From: Aedoeadaptatus urinae
GTDB taxonomy: Bacteria > Bacillota > Clostridia > Tissierellales > Peptoniphilaceae
Length of the DNA: 37,792 bases
Reading direction: 5' to 3'
Assembly: GCF_900155585.1 (NCBI RefSeq)
Contig: NZ_LT707416.1
Coordinates: 273,774-311,565, forward strand
Below, in pieces: positions 1 to 29,555 of the stretch. The first letter of the stretch is position 1, and each line of letters begins with the position of its first letter. The notes under the pieces were generated by a model that saw only the letters and a list, made by a program, of their open reading frames with translations, had not been told where the DNA came from and did not search any database. The translations under genes and the position numbers were made by a program.

Positions 1-212
1 GTGGCTCGTTCGATGCGTTTGTCGCCTAAGATTTCCAGGTCAAAGCCGGCTTCAACGAAGATTTGTTTAGGCCGCTTGCCCTTGGTTAGCGCTTCAATGA
101 AGTGTTTTTTAAATTCGGCCGTATAGAAAATGCATTGATCGTTGACTGATTTGACATTTGGATTGGTGCGTAAGATGGCTTGCTCTTCAGCGGTTAGTTT
201 TCCTCGTCCCAT
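1..212 (-). CDS. IS3-family transposase OrfA-like helix-turn-helix protein, partial
   Basis: This is the N-terminal 70 codons of a reading frame that runs off the left edge. It begins at an ATG (210-212) behind a good AGGAGG-type ribosome site (GGAGGG). The translated start MGRGKLTAEEQAILRTNPNV, followed later by a KRPKQIFVEAGFD stretch, matches the general pattern of short HTH proteins encoded upstream of IS3/IS150-type transposases (a short basic N-terminus, then a 'FK..F...L..GK.P.QIF...GFD' helix-turn-helix). It would bind the ends of its own element. The catalytic OrfB is outside the window. The family call is by pattern only. Confidence 0.6.
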   Translation of the reverse strand, partial: MGRGKLTAEEQAILRTNPNVKSVNDQCIFYTAEFKKHFIEALTKGKRPKQIFVEAGFDLEILGDKRIERA

Positions 213-282
213 GGTTTCCCTCCTTAATTGAATTATACACGATTTAAGGTAGGGGGAATGTCCAAATCTTGGGGACCGGGTT
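1..282 (-). mobile_element. IS3-family insertion sequence, 5' end only
   Basis: The upstream end of the element carrying the OrfA-like gene. Read on the minus strand, the terminus near 282 has an ACCCGGTCCCC..TTTGGACA layout. This resembles IS150-group ends and the TGACCCC..GTTGGAC ends of the remnant at 7760-8226. The exact outer base is uncertain by 1-3 nt because only one end is visible. Immediately outside it begins the AATCGCAA loop of a palindromic repeat. Confidence 0.5.
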
Positions 283-283
283 A

Positions 284-3831: not shown

Positions 3832-3862
3832 TGGAATGGCAACAGTTTTTTGGACACTTTTG

Positions 3863-4708
3863 TTAAGGTGTCGCTCGAATAACGGGCTTGCTTTTTATAC
3901 TCTCTCTTTCTCGGTATGCGAGAGGGGTCATGTTTTCAAGGCTTGTATGTCTTCGCTCGCTGTTCCACCATTGAATATAACTGCTGAGTTTCTCCCTTAG
4001 ATCATTCAGGCTTTGAAAGGTTTCTCTCTCTAAAAATTCTGTTTTGAAGCTCTTAAATATGTTCTCTGCTACGGCGTTGTCGTAGGGATTGCCGGGGCGA
4101 CTCAGCGAGCGTTTGATGTGGTTGGCTTTTAAAAGGGCACGTATATGGTTGTTATCGAATTCTTTCCCTCGGTCGGTGTGAAAGCAGCCGATGGCTTCTA
4201 GTGGGTAAGGGATGGTGTCGAATGCTTGTTGTATGAGGGCAGAGTCGCGACGTAAGCCGCAGGAGTAGCCGATGACTTCGCGATTGAAAAGGTCGGTGAT
4301 GGCACAAACGTAGGCCCAGCGCTGATGGATGCGAACGTAGGTCAAATCAGATACGATGACTTCCAACGGCTGACGTTGACTGAATTCGCGGTTGAGCGCA
4401 TTGTGTATTTGCTCTTCGTTTTTCTTTGACGGATGATGTCTGTACTTTGCTTTGGTGTAAACGGAAATCAAATGTAGCTTCTTCATAATGGCGCGAATTC
4501 GTCGCCTGGAGGCGACGATGTTTTCCGCTTCCAATTCACTTTTTATCTTGCGTGCGCCATAGACGTTGCGACTTGCACGAAAGATGGCACGGACCTTGAT
4601 CTCCAGATCGATTGCATCATCGGAAAGAGCTTTCGGCCGGTAGTAGTAGGCGGAACGGCTGATGCCTAGTACTCTACAAAGCGCTGATACCGGGTATTTG
4701 TGTTTCAA
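3863..4708 (-). CDS. IS3-family transposase OrfB (DDE integrase catalytic subunit)
   Basis: 281 residues. An N-terminal HTH_21-like region (ALCRVLGISRSAYYYRPK) precedes an rve/DDE core. The acidic residues are visible in IVSDLTYVRIHQ, in CFHTDRGKEF (second D), and in GNPYDNAVAENIFKSFKTE (E). A C-terminal YIQWWNSERRHTSLENMTP completes the usual pattern. The frame starts at a TTG that overlaps the orfA stop (TTGA). In IS3 elements OrfB is normally made as an OrfAB fusion by -1 frameshifting, but no A6G slippery site is obvious here, so stop-start coupling is possible. All core motifs look intact, so the element may be active. Confidence 0.9.
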   Translation of the reverse strand: MKHKYPVSALCRVLGISRSAYYYRPKALSDDAIDLEIKVRAIFRASRNVYGARKIKSELEAENIVASRRRIRAIMKKLHLISVYTKAKYRHHPSKKNEEQIHNALNREFSQRQPLEVIVSDLTYVRIHQRWAYVCAITDLFNREVIGYSCGLRRDSALIQQAFDTIPYPLEAIGCFHTDRGKEFDNNHIRALLKANHIKRSLSRPGNPYDNAVAENIFKSFKTEFLERETFQSLNDLREKLSSYIQWWNSERRHTSLENMTPLAYRERESIKSKPVIRATP

Positions 4709-5016
4709 ACGATCGATGACGTATCGTTTTTCTCCGCAAGTATCAGCGCGGCCTGCTTTAAAATATCATTCTCCATCTTGAGCCGTTGAATCTCTTTGCG
4801 TAAGGCAATCTTCTCCTGGTCCGATTCACTTAACGATACCGTCTCTTTGAAGGTACCGGTGGTACGGAATTGGCTAACCCAGCGGTCAAAGGCTGATGGG
4901 GTTAATGAATATTTCTGAATGATTTCTTGTCGGCTCATGCCTTCTTCGTAAAGATCCACCACGTGCTGCTTGAACTCGTCTGAAAAGGCTCTTCTTTTTC
5001 TAGGTGCTTTATCCAT
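4705..5016 (-). CDS. IS3-family transposase OrfA
   Basis: 103 residues from the ATG at 5016, which follows AAGGAGGATCAA; a longer frame upstream lacks a ribosome site. Residues 5-55 form a helix-turn-helix (FSDEFKQHVVDLYEEGMS, then SLTPSAFDRWVSQF) that binds the IS ends. Residues 65-100 form a leucine-zipper-like coiled coil (EIQRLKMENDILKQAALIL) for multimerisation with OrfB. The gene ends by overlapping the orfB start. Confidence 0.9.
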   Translation of the reverse strand: MDKAPRKRRAFSDEFKQHVVDLYEEGMSRQEIIQKYSLTPSAFDRWVSQFRTTGTFKETVSLSESDQEKIALRKEIQRLKMENDILKQAALILAEKNDTSSIV

Positions 5017-5087
5017 TTGATCCTCCTTGTTGATCATAAGATACCACACCTTAAGGAAACTGTCCTAATTATTGTAGCCTATCCAGC

Positions 5088-11768: not shown

Positions 11769-12509
11769 TTATTCATCACTATTATCGGCTCTACCGTCCC
11801 ATTTATTAAACCATATAGGAATTAAAGCAACAAGTGCAATGGTTACTATGACACATATCAATAAACCATATCTCAGCTCAGATGCAATCTCGAGAATATA
11901 ATCTGTGTGAAAAGTATCTAGAATCATTAGAGATGAAAATCTCGCTGCCCATGTTGGCGGAAGGTAATACCAAAACTTATCCAAAAGACCAGTACATCCT
12001 AAAGCCCCGACAAGAAAAAAAATTACTCCAGAACCTATTGACCATGACGTACCAAATTTAAAAGCGATAAATAGATGGATAAAAACTAGGCAAATAAGTG
12101 GAATAAGCATAAGAATAGTAGCCAAGACGTAGGATATGGTAAGCATCTTTCCATACAGCAAAGCAAACCCAGCAACAGCTATGATCAAACTAAGACCTGC
12201 CATAATTATCAATAAAATAACAAGTGATATTAGCATTTGAATTCTTGATTTTCCAACACATAAAATGTTAAAAGAAGAACCCGCACGTTGTTCCTGCTGA
12301 ACAATACCGGTACACAACATGACAACCAAGCAATCCATAAATAAGGATAAGGCTTGAAAAAATCCAGATATATTTTGCTCAATACTCCATGAAGAAACGG
12401 AATAATAAGCGATAAAAAGTCCTACACAAATAATTGGCCAAAGAATGCTTATATAAAATAGCGGACTTTTTACTATTTTATAAATATGCGAATGTAAACA
12501 TTTCAACAT
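11769..12509 (-). CDS. Lantibiotic-protection ABC transporter permease (MutG/SpaG-like)
   Basis: About 246 residues from the ATG at 12509, preferred because GAGGTGA lies 5-8 bp upstream; a GTG at 12518 overlaps the previous stop. Six hydrophobic segments are visible, with a C-terminal WFNKWDGR. Genes of this kind sit third in FEG-type exporters that expel lantibiotics from the membrane. The assignment to the G subunit rests on gene order and size, as the sequence family is weakly conserved. Confidence 0.75.
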   Translation of the reverse strand: MLKCLHSHIYKIVKSPLFYISILWPIICVGLFIAYYSVSSWSIEQNISGFFQALSLFMDCLVVMLCTGIVQQEQRAGSSFNILCVGKSRIQMLISLVILLIIMAGLSLIIAVAGFALLYGKMLTISYVLATILMLIPLICLVFIHLFIAFKFGTSWSIGSGVIFFLVGALGCTGLLDKFWYYLPPTWAARFSSLMILDTFHTDYILEIASELRYGLLICVIVTIALVALIPIWFNKWDGRADNSDE

Positions 12510-14802: not shown

Positions 14803-15591
14803 ATGAAATTTTGTGCAATCGCCAGTGGCAGCAGCGGCAACTGCCAATATATAGAAACGAACGAAAAGAAGATTTTAATCGACGCCGGCTTAAGCGGCAA
14901 GGCCATCGAGGAGAATTTGCGCGCCGTGGGGGTGGAGCCCGGGGATTTGGACGGAATTCTCGTTACCCACGAGCACAACGATCACGTGAAGGGCGTGGGG
15001 ATTTTGGCCCGCCGCTGGGGGCTGGATGTCTTCGCCAACGAAAACACCTGGCGCGCCATGGAAAAGACGGTGAAGCGCATTGACGATCACAAGCGCCACG
15101 TCTTTGACACGGCCCAAGCTTTTTTCTACGGGGACCTGGAGATCGTGCCTATGGCGCTGTTTCACGACGCCGTCGAGGGCACGGGCTATGTGATTCGCTC
15201 GGGAAGCAAAAAGCTTTCCGTCCTCACGGACACGGGCTGGGTCAATACGTCTATGCTGGAGAAGATGAGCGGCAGCGATCTTTATTACATCGAGAGCAAT
15301 CACGATACGGATATGCTTGAAAGTGGCCCCTATCCCCGCATACTGAAGGACCGCATCGCATCGACTCGGGGGCACTTGTCCAACGAGCACTGCGGCGAGC
15401 TCTTGACCGGGCTTTTGGAAAAGAAGGGCGAGCACGTGGTCTTGGCCCATTTGTCCGAGGAAAACAATCGGCCCCTGTTGGCGGCCCGGGCGACTCGGGA
15501 AATTTTGGCTGAGCACGCCATTTACGAGGGCAGGGATTTTATTTTGGAAGTGGCAAAGGCCAGAGTGCCTTCCCGCTTTATCGAGCTGTAA
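14803..15591 (+). CDS. walJ: MBL-fold metallohydrolase, WalJ/YycJ family
   Basis: 262 residues from the ATG at 14803. A GTG twelve bases earlier is in frame, but it overlaps the GGAGG site that serves the ATG. The start MKFCAIASGSSGNCQYIE is the family hallmark. The metal-binding THEHNDHVKG follows near residue 57, with later SVLTDTGW, ESNHD and LAHLSEENN segments carrying the remaining His/Asp ligands. WalJ acts with the WalKR cell-wall system in many Bacillota and has been linked to mismatch-repair-associated nuclease activity. Here it is not next to walRK but heads a walJ-surE-transporter operon, 9 bp before surE. Confidence 0.9.
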   Translation: MKFCAIASGSSGNCQYIETNEKKILIDAGLSGKAIEENLRAVGVEPGDLDGILVTHEHNDHVKGVGILARRWGLDVFANENTWRAMEKTVKRIDDHKRHVFDTAQAFFYGDLEIVPMALFHDAVEGTGYVIRSGSKKLSVLTDTGWVNTSMLEKMSGSDLYYIESNHDTDMLESGPYPRILKDRIASTRGHLSNEHCGELLTGLLEKKGEHVVLAHLSEENNRPLLAARATREILAEHAIYEGRDFILEVAKARVPSRFIEL

Positions 15592-17330: not shown

Positions 17331-18116
17331 ATGAAAAAAACAACCATGGATATTTACAAAGCCATGTTTCCCAGTTTACTGATTTATCTTGTAATCGTCG
17401 CCGCCTTTAATTTAATTTTTGATATGATGGGCCTGGGCACCGACGCCTTTATGACAAACGTGGCGAACTCGCCCATGCCTATGCCGGAATTTCACTTCGG
17501 CGGCACGGCGGTGGCATCCCTCATCGTCCACTTGATCTACTACATCGTCGTGGGCCTCGCGGGCTACGGCCTGATCTTAATGATTTATCGCATGGCCCGC
17601 TACGACACGGAACCGGAATTTGTCGACGTCTTTTACTTTTTTAACGCCAAGGCCGGCTCCACCATCGGCACCTATATTATCGAAAAAATTCTTTCCGGCG
17701 TCTTTTTCCTGCTGCTCTTTGTGCCGGGGATCATCTTTTCCCTGGCCATGGTGCCCCTGGGTGCCGTCATCGGCATCGATCAGATTCGCGGTAGAGCCGG
17801 CGCCTTTACGCCCATTAAAGAGTCCTGGCGCATGACCAAGGGCCACAAGGGCATGATCTTCGGCCGCATGGCCATCGTCATCGTCATTGTCATGGTGCTC
17901 GCCGGCGGCTTCGGCTTGGCCATTGCGGCGGCGGGCCTTTCCCAAGGCACGATGAACACGCTGATCAATGTCTTAGGCACCGTGATCTTCGGCCTCATGA
18001 GCTATGTGGCCGTGGTGGATATCATTCGGGAGCTGGTGGAGCGAGGCGCCTTTGAAACCATCGATCCGATTCATGAAGAAATTGAAGATATGGAAATCCA
18101 AGGAGAGGTTCTATGA
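17331..18116 (+). CDS. Polytopic membrane protein, DUF975/DUF4013-like
   Basis: 261 residues with about five or six membrane segments. A VFFLLLFVPGIIFSLAMVPL segment is followed by SWRMTKGHKGMIFGR, the pattern of DUF975-type proteins ('L..VPGII....S.....KG.K...F'). Function is unknown. A GAAAGGAG site precedes the ATG and a TATAAG box lies at about 17286. Its stop overlaps the next start as ATGA, so the two are coupled. The acidic C-terminal tail (HEEIEDMEIQGE) is probably cytoplasmic. Confidence 0.65.
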   Translation: MKKTTMDIYKAMFPSLLIYLVIVAAFNLIFDMMGLGTDAFMTNVANSPMPMPEFHFGGTAVASLIVHLIYYIVVGLAGYGLILMIYRMARYDTEPEFVDVFYFFNAKAGSTIGTYIIEKILSGVFFLLLFVPGIIFSLAMVPLGAVIGIDQIRGRAGAFTPIKESWRMTKGHKGMIFGRMAIVIVIVMVLAGGFGLAIAAAGLSQGTMNTLINVLGTVIFGLMSYVAVVDIIRELVERGAFETIDPIHEEIEDMEIQGEVL

Positions 18117-18424
18117 GTTATTTAAAAGTTGAAATTTTTATACCGGAAGATTTCGTCGTGGAACTGGCCAACGATTTAAATGAAGCGGATATTTTCCGCG
18201 AAGGCAATTATGACTACACCTTCAGCCTGACGAGGGTGGAGGGCCACTGGCGGCCTCTGGAGGGTGCCGATCCCTACGACGGCGTCGTCGGTCAGGTGCA
18301 AAGCCGGGAAGAGATGAAGATGGAATTTCGCATCGACGAAGAGGACCGGGAAGAGGTACAGCGGATCATCGACCGCATCCATCCCTATGAGGTGCCGGTG
18401 GTCAATTACATTCAATTGGTTTAA
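18113..18424 (+). CDS. NIF3/YqfO C-terminal-like (CutA-fold) protein
   Basis: 103 residues. It begins LKVEIFIPEDFVVELANDL, then GNYDYTFSLTRVEGHWRPLEGADPYDGVVG, and ends with RIHPYEVPVVNYIQLV. This is the 'G.Y....F...G..RP..GA.P..G..G' and 'HPYE.P' pattern of the PII/CutA-like domain inserted in NIF3/YqfO proteins, here standing alone. Trimeric cytoplasmic assembly is expected. Role unknown; the coupling to a membrane protein gene may mean they act together (inference). Confidence 0.8.
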   Translation: MSYLKVEIFIPEDFVVELANDLNEADIFREGNYDYTFSLTRVEGHWRPLEGADPYDGVVGQVQSREEMKMEFRIDEEDREEVQRIIDRIHPYEVPVVNYIQLV

Positions 18425-27050: not shown

Positions 27051-28406
27051 ATGAAGCAGAAGAATGTCAACCTAACCGAAGGCGTGATTTGGAAAAACCT
27101 ACTGTCTTTTACGCTCCCCCTCCTCCTTTCCGCTTTACTCCAGCAGCTTTATAACACGGTGGACCTTTTGATCGTCGGCCGTTTTGCGGGCAAGGTGGAC
27201 ATGGCCGCCATCGGCGCATCGGGCCCCATTACCGTTCTCGTCGTCGCCCTTTTCATGGGCATGTCTACGGGGACCTCGGTCTTGGTGGCCCAGTACTACG
27301 GCGCCAAGGACCGGGCGGAGCTGTCGAAAACCGTGCACACCAACTTCGCCATGGCCATTTACGGCGGCCTGGGCCTCACCATCATCACCGTGGCTCTATC
27401 TTCCTGGTTTTTAAGCCTCATCGACACGCCTGAAAGTGTCATGGGCCCCGCCACCCGCTACCTGCAGATCATATTCGTGGGGCTGATCCCGGTCATGGTC
27501 TACAATATGGGCTCGGCGGTTCTGAGAAGCGTCGGCGACAGCGTGCGACCCTTTAACTTCCTCGCCATCGCCGCCGGACTGAACATCGTCTTGGACCTGT
27601 TCTTCGTCGGCTACTTAAAAATGGGGGCCATCGGCGCCGGCATCGCCACGGCCATCGCCCAATCCACCTCGGGGATTTTGGTCATCATCAGTCTCATGCG
27701 GACCACGGACATTTATCGCCTGCGCCTGAAAAAAATTCGCTTCCATAAAAAAACCCTGGAGCGGATTGTGGCCATCGGCCTGCCCGCAGCCATCTCAGGT
27801 GGCATGATCGGCCTCTCCAACGTCATCATCCAGGCGAAGATCAACGTCTTCGGCGCCCAGGCCATCGCCGGCGTGGCGGCGGCCAGTCGTATCGACGGTT
27901 TTGTCTTTACCTCGCTGGAAGCCTTCGCTCTCGCCATCACCACCTTCGTGGGGCAAAACATCGGCGCGAGAAAACCCAAGCGACTGAAGACGGGCATCGG
28001 CACCGCCATTATCATGACCCTGATCTTCGTCGCCTCCGTCTCGTCCATCCTCGTCATCTTCCGCCACCCCTTTATGCAGATCTTTACCACGGATAAAGAC
28101 GTTATCTACTTCGGCGCGAAGATGATCGGGACCCTGGCGCCCTTCTACGTCATCTTCTCCATTACCGAAGTCCTTTCCGGGGCCATACGGGGAAGCGGCG
28201 ACGCCATCCCTATAATGGTCATTACGCTCATCGGCATGTTCGTCATCCGCATCGGCTGGATCATCGTCGCCATGCCCATCTACAACACCATCGACATTAT
28301 TTATTGGAGCTACCCCATTAGCTGGATCTTCACCTGGACCCTGACCCTGGTGTACTTCTTTAAAGGCAAATGGAGGAAAAGAGCCATGGAAGGAGAGATC
28401 GCATAA
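27051..28406 (+). CDS. MATE-family multidrug/Na+ antiporter
   Basis: 451 residues with 12 hydrophobic segments in two homologous halves. The opening SFTLPLLLSALLQQLYNTVD and the QYYGAKDRAELSKTVHT segment are typical of the NorM/DinF-type MATE exporters of Bacillota, as are VGDSVRPFNFLAIA in the first half and TFVGQNIGARKPKRLKTG in the second. They exchange cationic drugs or metabolites for Na+ or H+. AAAAGGAGGG precedes the ATG. It is a single gene whose terminator starts inside the last codons. Confidence 0.92.
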   Translation: MKQKNVNLTEGVIWKNLLSFTLPLLLSALLQQLYNTVDLLIVGRFAGKVDMAAIGASGPITVLVVALFMGMSTGTSVLVAQYYGAKDRAELSKTVHTNFAMAIYGGLGLTIITVALSSWFLSLIDTPESVMGPATRYLQIIFVGLIPVMVYNMGSAVLRSVGDSVRPFNFLAIAAGLNIVLDLFFVGYLKMGAIGAGIATAIAQSTSGILVIISLMRTTDIYRLRLKKIRFHKKTLERIVAIGLPAAISGGMIGLSNVIIQAKINVFGAQAIAGVAAASRIDGFVFTSLEAFALAITTFVGQNIGARKPKRLKTGIGTAIIMTLIFVASVSSILVIFRHPFMQIFTTDKDVIYFGAKMIGTLAPFYVIFSITEVLSGAIRGSGDAIPIMVITLIGMFVIRIGWIIVAMPIYNTIDIIYWSYPISWIFTWTLTLVYFFKGKWRKRAMEGEIA

Positions 28407-28418
28407 GCGGTCTCTTTT
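28394..28418 (+). terminator. Terminator overlapping the MATE gene stop codon
   Basis: GAGATCGC..GCGGTCTC stem with TTTTT after it. The loop contains the TAA stop of the gene. Confidence 0.7.
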
Positions 28419-28449
28419 TCCATGGAGAGAAAACCCTGCGGGGCCTCTT

Positions 28450-28682
28450 TGTTTTTTGCCATAGCTGACGTAATAAAATCAAGTTTCTTTCTTCTTCTAA
28501 AAATTCATTCTTACATGGCTTTGAGACCCGGGGAAGGGGCTAGGGCGTTGCGATTCGCCCTCTGCCCCTTCCCCGGGGCCCCATCCCCATCCACCCACAA
28601 ACGCCTTTTAGCAGTGCAAATGCCTACCGGCATTTGATTTGTATTGGGCCGTGTCGCGGAAGGAAGAATGTGAGTTGGGCAC
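28450..28682 (-). repeat. Structured palindromic repeat, full copy (type 1), minus strand
   Basis: Read leftward from 28682: a GTGCCCAACTCA head; GCCCAA; a 7-bp stem-loop AAATGCC-GGTA-GGCATTT (28618-28635); GCAC; AAAAGGCGTT; a G-rich run (GGG.GG..GGGG..GGGG); then a 51-bp palindrome (28527-28577) with 14-bp perfect arms CCCGGGGAAGGGGC, inner GGGCG, loop AATCGCAA, CGCCC; then a tail to about 28450 like that at 312-385. It is head-to-head with the next copy, 21 bp apart. It occupies the gap after the MATE gene and no protein gene explains it. It could be a structured RNA, a non-autonomous mobile element, or an IS605-type end. Confidence 0.7.
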
Positions 28683-28703
28683 TTAATTTAGAATAAAGGG
28701 CGA

Positions 28704-28965
28704 TTGCCCGACTCATTGTCTTATGTCGGCGAAGAAGCCCAACAGGAATCGGAACCCGCAAGGGTTCCGCACATTAAAAAAGCGTTAGGGTTAAAGGGTG
28801 GGGGTCCGGGGGCGGGATAAGGGCGAATCGCAACGCCCTTTTTCCCGCCCCCGGAAATCGGAAAGCGAAGATATATTTTAAGCGGAAGAAAAGCAAAGGG
28901 CAGGTACCTTTTTCCTGCGTTTGGAAAGAAAGAACATAACCTAAGTAAGAAAAAAGAAAATACGC
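28704..28965 (+). repeat. Structured palindromic repeat, full copy (type 2), plus strand
   Basis: The same order of parts as the copy on the other strand. TTGCCCGACTCA head; GCCCAA; 7-bp stem-loop GGAACCC-GCAA-GGGTTCC (28751-28768); GCAC; AAAAAAGCGTT; G-rich run; 51-bp palindrome (28805-28855) with 13-bp perfect arms TCCGGGGGCGGGA, inner GGGCG, loop AATCGCAA, CGCCC; tail to about 28965 like that at 5161-5225. Over the 47 nt before the first stem the copies align without gaps at about 66%. In the stem, four of seven pairs differ by compensatory double changes. Confidence 0.7.
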
Positions 28966-28982
28966 CCCTTTTCCAGGGCAAT

Positions 28983-29012
28983 AAAAAACAGACCATCTCA
29001 GGTCTGTTTTTT
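28983..29012 (-). terminator. Bidirectional terminator overlapping the stop of the membrane-protein gene
   Basis: AAAAAACAGACC / GGTCTGTTTTTT around a 6-nt loop that holds the TGA stop of the minus-strand gene. T-runs exist on both strands. Confidence 0.85.
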
Positions 29013-29555
29013 ATTGCCCACAATGCCTATATTCGGCAGAAAGAGAAAAATCACTCCGTACACGGCGGCAGCGATTCCGCCCGTGGGCAGCTCGCGTTGT
29101 ATTTTCCCGGGGAGGCTAGTCAGTATTTCCGTGCCGGGGAGGGCGAAGTCCGGTGCGGCGAGGAGGTAGACGAGGCCGAAGACCAGGGCGGAGTAAATGG
29201 CGGCGGCCCATTTTTTCCGTCTCGTGGTGTAGAGGCGAAAGGTACTTTTTCTGAAGGCGTTAAATTGCAAGAAGTAGCTGAGGCTGTAGGCGACGACGAG
29301 AAGGCCGCTTAACAGGCCGTCGGCATTCAGGGTTTTCAGCACGGGGAGGCTGTAGACGATAAGGCCGTTTCCCAGAAAGAGGGCGATGAGCCGAAGGATG
29401 CTCTTTGATTTTTGCACCCATTCCGCCAGGAAATAGGCGATGGCCACGAGGCCCAGGGCTATGATCTGCAGCTTGTCGGCGAGGCCCAGGCTGTAAAGGC
29501 CGGCCCAGATCGCCAGGTGAAAGCCGGTAAGTATGAGGTCTCGGTTGTTTTTCAC
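28998..29555 (-). CDS. Polytopic membrane protein of unknown function
   Basis: 185 residues with about six hydrophobic segments (e.g. LQIIALGLVAIAYFLAEWV, and GGIAAAVYGVIFLFLPNIG near the end) and basic loops such as FRLYTTRRKKW. I do not recognise the family. It is the last gene of an operon with the ClC transporter and the binding protein, overlapping the latter by 4 bp (ATGA). Tight coupling suggests a common process, possibly ion or osmotic balance, but this is a guess from context. Confidence 0.6.
   Translation of the reverse strand: MKNNRDLILTGFHLAIWAGLYSLGLADKLQIIALGLVAIAYFLAEWVQKSKSILRLIALFLGNGLIVYSLPVLKTLNADGLLSGLLVVAYSLSYFLQFNAFRKSTFRLYTTRRKKWAAAIYSALVFGLVYLLAAPDFALPGTEILTSLPGKIQRELPTGGIAAAVYGVIFLFLPNIGIVGNKKQT

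Follow-up and report, generated by a model that had tools for sequence, protein, structure and literature searches.

What is the repeat that lies as an inverted pair between two genes of Aedoeadaptatus urinae, and is it as DNA or as RNA, double-stranded or single-stranded, that its structure has been kept? The pair was found in the window, by which is meant the whole stretch of 37,792 nucleotides that was analyzed. On one side is a gene that, by its sequence, we take to encode a MATE efflux pump-like protein, and on the other a gene for a small membrane protein. The parts of the region are these, the outer limits of both copies being fuzzy:

27051-28406, + strand: MATE-like gene, 3' end pointing at the pair
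28457..28683, - strand: copy A (A-type arms); its head faces copy B, its tail the MATE gene's 3' end
28671..28681, - strand: head motif of copy A, TGCCCAACTCA
28617..28636, - strand: hairpin 1 of copy A, 8 bp, loop GGTA on a C-G pair
28600..28604, - strand: GCGTT motif of copy A, which may be a docking partner of the apical loop
28579..28588, - strand: putative third strand of copy A, GGGGATGGGG, mirroring the purine arm
28527..28577, - strand: long hairpin of copy A (purine arm, internal loop, apical stem AGGGCG/CGCCCT, loop, pyrimidine arm)
28548-28555, - strand: apical loop of copy A, AATCGCAA
28703..28909, + strand: copy B (B-type arms); its tail faces the small membrane-protein gene's 3' end
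28705..28715, + strand: head motif of copy B, TGCCCGACTCA
28750..28769, + strand: hairpin 1 of copy B, 8 bp, loop GCAA on a C-G pair
28782..28786, + strand: GCGTT motif of copy B
28796..28804, + strand: putative third strand of copy B, GGGTGGGGG, mirroring the purine arm
28805..28855, + strand: long hairpin of copy B, with the same parts and apical stem as in copy A
28826-28833, + strand: apical loop of copy B, AATCGCAA
28998-29555, - strand: small membrane-protein gene, 3' end pointing at the pair

At 28976-29019, a perfect 19-bp inverted repeat with a T-run probably serves the small membrane-protein gene as a (two-way) terminator.

An earlier note, made from the letters of the window alone, had described a head-to-head inverted pair whose heads lie 21 bp apart. 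The pair is there, with 23 bases between the head motifs. The note was right that 4 of the 7 pairs of the small stem differ between copies A and B by double changes, and right that the arms of the palindrome differ yet pair in both copies; they are not perfectly paired, as it had it, since 6-8 bp below the apex the stem of each copy opens into a small internal loop. Folded as single-stranded DNA, the two copies gave z = -5.5 and -6.2 (against 200 shuffles each), and the GCGTT motif is invariant in an alignment of copies.

We propose, with a probability of roughly 0.6, that the pair belongs to a family of interspersed extragenic repeats of ~200-250 bp, whose G-rich strand would be built to fold as single-stranded DNA into a class I intrastrand purine-motif triplex. 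From 5' to 3', that strand would carry a small hairpin, whose loop, on a C-G pair, is GNNA or GNA; the motif GCGTT; a purine third strand, turning back through a loop of 2-6 nt to lie antiparallel in the major groove of the long hairpin; and the long hairpin itself, whose purine arm (5') leads through a small internal loop to the apex AATCGCAA. Third strand and long hairpin together would make the triplex. In such a fold the end of GCGTT would come to lie next to the apical loop, with which the motif may dock (GCGTT with AA(T)CGC). The fold would form when the strand is single, for example on the lagging-strand template, and its apex may be recognized by some protein, not of the Y1 type in at least some hosts. 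Copies would spread rarely and be homogenized within a genome by recombination. A more elaborate version, possible but doubtful, is a triplex-clamped pseudoknot, in which the 5' GCGTT docks in the AATCGCAA loop with the cGNNAg hairpin beside it, the whole being spread as single-stranded DNA by an enzyme other than Y1. If that is true, then the form found in Oscillospiraceae (below) would be its minimal version.

The earlier note had made further copies in the source genome and in related Peptoniphilaceae the test of its claim, and both exist. A blastn search with 28440-28975 of the 1.82 Mb own genome gave 51 matches at E<=1, self included, with strong clusters at C2 98-130 kb, C2 272-303 kb, C3 164-176 kb, C3 339 kb, and C4 483-486 kb. 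Since the exact apex 18-mer also occurs 15 times in that genome and the reversed pattern not once, the repeat is not a product of chance. The same 18-mer is present in 10 of 130 genomes of the family (the reversed pattern in none): besides the 15 instances in the own genome, six of the genus's seven other genomes have 14, 11, 11, 5, 2, and 1, and three other genera have 8, 5, and 1. When 84,980 species genomes were scanned for the apex, 68 stretches were returned: 50 from Peptoniphilaceae records, 10 from metagenome-assembled genomes (MAGs) of Oscillospiraceae, and 8 single matches in unrelated organisms, without context. In the Peptoniphilaceae stretches that were fetched, AATCGCAA accompanied by a pairing stem occurs in 85 copies or part-copies from ten genomes (15 own, 14 each A. 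coli and KCTC 25270, 11 each A. pacaensis and P. rachelemmaiella, 8 P. nemausensis, 5 P. obesi, 4 A. coxii, 2 Gallicola, and 1 A. ivorii).

The Oscillospiraceae loci hold 10 further copies of AATCGCAA with a stem, and a looser pattern found, in five of the MAGs, 18 copies of a reduced form that runs GCGYT, G-run, three bases, stem, AATCGCAA. Its stems are, for example, GGGGCG/CGCCCC, GGGGG/CCCCC, and GGGGAG/CTCCCC; one of the 18 (L250) has no 3' stem and another (L239) has one mispair. A triplex is doubtful in this form, since the 3' flank seems to pair with the three bases that separate the G-runs. Downstream of the reduced copies in L239-L254 stands a second hairpin (TTTTGGTACTTTT ... AAAAGTAC and similar), whose T-run could form G-T pairs with the upstream G-run. 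Among 297 sampled genomes of the family of the Oscillospiraceae MAG, only the MAG at the center of the sample and one chance match were found. Phage records (50,697) and plasmid records (72,556) gave no blastn match at E<=1e-5. Among viral contigs, 2 stretches have the exact apex and 19 fit a looser pattern; L122, common to both sets, is the only one with the stem. A search of the open-access literature, with subscription papers and preprints mostly outside its reach, gave no account of this repeat family.

Both hairpins covary between copies. The alignment comprised 43 distinct copies out of 64 from seven genomes of the Aedoeadaptatus group, filtered by an intact small hairpin, GCGTT, and length. 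In it, the 25 pairs of hairpins 1 and 2 are paired in 98.2% of 1062 cells, as against 85.6% after shuffling, and double changes are seen in 12 of the 25 pairs (9.1 shuffled) and in 131 cells (45.5 shuffled), counts that are not of independent events, because repeat copies share ancestry. If the partner column is shifted by one, 57.5% or 62.3% of cells remain paired. Further pair types, by contrast, number 19, no more than in the shuffles (20.6; 475 of 500 were as high). Much of what is unpaired in the lower stem is due to B-type copies, which are in another register there. The apical stem has been altered on both sides, to GGCCG/CGGCC in A. coxii and P. nemausensis and to GGGAG/CTCCC in KCTC 25270. 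The octaloop is constant by construction, having served as the search term; nevertheless, the exact octaloop recurs in two families, Peptoniphilaceae and Oscillospiraceae. The claim that selection has acted on single-strand structure, drawn at the outset from two copies, is thus borne out by 43 and by the many further copies in related genomes.

What, then, is the G-rich tract that precedes the palindrome? The earlier note had seen G-runs in both copies and suggested that a quadruplex might compete with the hairpin. The G-runs are present, but their best reading is one that the note did not see: when copies are compared side by side, the tract is the mirror image of the left (purine) arm of the palindrome. 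Examples are GAGAGGGG-TTAA-GGGGAGAG and AAATGGGGG-TTAA-GGGGGAAAA in P. obesi, AGGATTGGGG-TTTTA-GGGGAAAGGA in P. nemausensis, AGGAGGGGG-TCT-GGGGGAGGA in Gallicola, and AGGGTGGGGG-TCC-GGGGGCGGGA in copy B of the window. The order on one strand of third strand, purine arm, and pyrimidine arm, with purine-motif triads, is that of class I at the level of sequence, the name being the one used in the available part of PMC4666352.

The relation was scored in the 66 of the 85 copies that have GCGTT upstream, collapsed to 37 distinct types (GCGTT is missing in the other 19, many of them interrupted by an insertion sequence or another module; among copies, the motif and the apical loop are near-constant). 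Nine positions were scored under the antiparallel purine-motif rules, by which G may stand on G.C and A or T on A.T; for real and permuted pairings alike, the loop (2-6 nt) was the one that scored best. The rules are obeyed at 316 of 333 positions, whereas reading the tract as a direct repeat gives 267 of 333. Individual types score between 7 and 9 of 9 in the mirror reading. Opposite G.C pairs there is G at 244 of 252 positions, and opposite A.T pairs there are 40 A, 30 T, and 4 others; only 2 of the 7 C positions in the arms have a legal partner, T both times. Reduced to 13 distinct arms with one context each, drawn from four genera but not fully independent, 109 of 117 positions are legal; 20,000 permutations averaged 93 and reached at most 105, none as high as the real pairing. 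The direct-repeat reading fits the 13 arms far more poorly (89 of 117; 10 of 20,000 permutations as high), and it too beats permutation because the G-runs are partly symmetric. That the three strands change together is the firm new point of this analysis. Three other readings of the tract were considered: the T residues of the tract argue against a parallel duplex with the pyrimidine arm and against a pyrimidine-motif triplex on the opposite strand, and an origin by strand switching would require a direct repeat where a mirror repeat is seen.

The small hairpin bears on whether the strand is DNA or RNA. GNNA and GNA loops on a C-G pair are exceptionally stable in DNA, and GNRA is the loop favored by RNA. 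The hairpin was found in 52 of 61 copies with a GCGTT-like anchor, and, in a search that slightly favored four-base loops among copies of shared ancestry, 46 of the 52 loops proved to be cGNNAg or cGNAg and 2 to be GNRA. The major loops are GTCA (18, plus one on a T-G pair), GTTA (11), and GCCA (6), the minor ones GGCA, GCAA, GTA, and GCA (2 each), GACA, GATA, and GGTA (1 each), with five others. These loops speak for single-stranded DNA, not RNA, and the putative purine-motif third strand points the same way.

Of the two possibilities raised by the earlier note, structured RNA or single-stranded DNA, it is therefore the second that stands. A structured RNA family, either a small RNA or an element of 3' untranslated regions, would account well for the strong covariation of the hairpins and for their location after gene ends. 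It would account poorly for the scarcity of GNRA, and Rfam 15 recognizes no family at gathering score in the window; with the search relaxed over 28400-29030, it gave 51 matches, all under the cut-offs, the best of them (E about 0.0006-0.006) on the palindrome. Moreover, purine-motif triplexes are said in the available part of PMC4666352 to be unable to form in RNA. RNA is for these reasons quite improbable. A G-quadruplex element, in which tract and arm G-runs form a quadruplex in competition with the hairpin, draws support from the at least four G-runs that precede the loop in the copies read by eye, those of P. obesi included. One would not expect from it, however, that the positions of A and T in the tract and the lengths of its runs should mirror the arm, and it is distinctly unlikely; judged by their sequences, tract and hairpin fit a class I intrastrand triplex better. 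Regarding the triplex itself, the same source, in the part available, reports for the E. coli triplex motif that no stable triplex was found in vivo and that footprinting did not show folding.

What might carry or recognize such a repeat? The earlier note had thought of mobilization in the manner of REP/RAYT or IS200/IS605. The own genome has three full-length Y1 transposase genes (one with an internal stop) and a broken one, all of an IS200-like element, and the repeat is absent within roughly 1.5 kb on either side of them. The Y1 profile (Y1_Tnp, PF01797) has no match in three genomes that carry the repeat, G003, G013, and G017 (the last 81% complete), so a Y1 transposase is not the recognizer in at least these three carriers. 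The note's alternative, a TnpB tail marking an omega-RNA relic, fared no better: the TnpB profile PF07282 has no match in the own genome, the one genome searched. For the repeat itself, neither sharp ends, terminal inverted repeats, nor a target duplication was found, nor a parent transposon or recognizing protein.

Other elements do insert into it. In the own genome, 3 of 3 copies of one IS3-family element sit in the apex of a palindrome. One insertion, L256, looks simple, with a 4-base duplication; in the window copy (L255) and in L257, the flanks come from different repeat copies, which implies recombination. A second element, also IS3-like, has a single frame of about 455-480 aa (HTH_Tnp_2, HTH_21, rve) and lies beside or inside the repeat in fetched loci. 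Several copies are interrupted, in the third strand or the small hairpin, by a two-hairpin module of ~100-115 bp (GACCTATCCCGACGAG ... GATGTATAGTTGTA); one such insertion, in L213, shows no visible target duplication. The sites are:

3833..5085 of the window, - strand: IS3-family element with two reading frames, apex and right arm of further repeats on both flanks (L255)
window 1-283; L023 7620-9057; L024 14697-16136; L026 5439-6878; L021 3120-4556: second IS3-like element
L213 (3' flank of the A. pacaensis MATE gene); L022 5850-5925; L025 5508-5611; L028, L045, L091, L097, L101, L104: 100-115 bp module

The repeat keeps to the spaces between genes: none of the 85 copies falls inside a called gene, 78 being intergenic by the gene calls and 7 lying where a stretch ends. 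The neighborhoods of copies in part recur. Among the nearest open reading frames are what we take to be aroA-like and aroC-like genes in six genomes of two genera and an MFS-type transporter gene in five genomes. Elsewhere copies have been gained or lost. Within the genus, the 3' flank of the MATE gene (274 bases inspected for A. coli, 600-800 for the others) has the repeat in 2 of 8 genomes, the own and that of A. pacaensis. The small membrane-protein gene is present in 6 of the 8 genomes of the genus set and is followed directly by the repeat in the own genome, A. coxii, and P. nemausensis, and behind an insertion sequence in A. pacaensis; in G004 and A. ivorii, no repeat lies within the 600-900 bases read after it. 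The adjacency of the two window genes is broken in A. pacaensis, with a copy near each, as would be expected of recombination at repeats. Surface-protein genes lie near several copies in different genera (L024 8063-10444, L100 1173-3863, L164 746-2755), their products sharing the signal peptide MNKKxLSLVLALVMVLG and weak SLH matches.

There are 16 neighboring pairs within 1.5 kb. All 10 inverted pairs closer than 600 bp are heterotypic, with 11-15 of 22 left-arm bases alike, and in two wider ones (631 and 1490 bp) the arms are nearly alike. In KCTC 25270, pairs are tail-to-tail, not head-to-head, and at several loci (including L156 7600-9110) repeats stand in intergenic mosaics of more than 1 kb with direct repeats of ~100-200 bp. 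Also in that strain, spurious frames in L157 5504-7696 repeat the peptides GSPPRVREV and ITPACAGS, which to us recall translated type I-E CRISPR repeats. Runs of N near the repeats of P. obesi (L154, about 11913-12245, 15012-15560, and 17894-18403) are probably assembly gaps or masked stretches.

Two further explanations can be weighed against this background. The repeat might be a site read as double-stranded DNA or through supercoiling, as with BIMEs, by a nucleoid protein or gyrase or as a topological insulator between convergent genes. Convergent intergenic regions are indeed in excess, at 23 of the 64 that bear the repeat and 42 of the 267 that do not (odds ratio 3.0, p = 7e-4). Of 78 copies, 54 have the 3' end of a gene facing the tail side and 43 the head side. 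These figures come from an ad hoc gene caller and non-independent loci, with IS genes included. Some positions recur between genera, as noted above. Against such a site, the arms vary freely while their pairing and their relation to the third strand are kept, which a duplex protein reading sequence would not need. We regard it as unlikely. The other explanation, a REP or REPIN mobilized by a RAYT or another Y1 (HUH) transposase, is highly improbable. The repeat does resemble REPs in being extragenic, palindromic, arranged in inverted pairs, multicopy, and a target of insertion sequences (REPs are so described in the available part of PMC1525189), and it resembles REP, BIME, and REPIN arrays also in its mosaics and in attracting the IS3 family; IS1397 and ISKpn1 likewise insert in REPs, according to the same source. 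However, the unit of about 200-250 bp is much longer than a REP, described in the part available of PMC3733652 as a palindrome of 20-40 bp with a conserved tetranucleotide tag such as GTAG, and it has a third strand (as we read the tract) and a second hairpin. A REP-RAYT system has a Y1 transposase in the carrier, usually flanked by the repeat; G003, G013, and G017 gave no Y1 match, and in the own genome the Y1 copies are IS200-like and free of the repeat.

To return to the proposed single-stranded triplex, with which known elements does such a repeat belong? MITE-like miniature transposable elements are small, noncoding, and multicopy, as it is, but the sharp ends, terminal inverted repeats, target duplications, and parent transposon that would go with a MITE were not found here. 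The nearest known kind is the E. coli triplex repeat known as BoxC, PIT, or TM_ECO, which is of class II. As depicted in the available part of PMC4666352, it too is intergenic and multicopy, has one strand capable of a G/C-rich purine-motif triplex, combines two types in close inverted pairs (type A with type B in 5 of 5), and has no known carrier or enzyme. It differs in the order of its domains, class II where that of our repeat is class I; the TM_ECO consensus CCCTCNCCC-GGGNGAGGG-GGGNGAGGG given in that source does not describe the repeat studied here, in which the domain order is reversed and the arms differ. Unlike in TM_ECO, the arms vary and covary between species, and an invariant apex, an upstream GCGTT, and a second, GNNA-type hairpin are added. 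Insertion sequences enter the apex here, whereas TM_ECO is presented in the same part of the source as having no association with mobile elements.

The best studied family of intrastrand triplexes, again going by the part of PMC4666352 available, is nearly constant in sequence. Here, by contrast, all three strands vary in concert across four genera, and this points to the triplex itself as the object of selection. Joint change of three strands between species would be an uncommon kind of evolutionary evidence for a natural DNA triple helix, and as to the role of intrastrand DNA triplexes in living cells, the repeat may offer natural covarying variants ready-made for testing. It also suggests that some bacterial repeats may be kept as folds of single-stranded DNA without a RAYT transposase.
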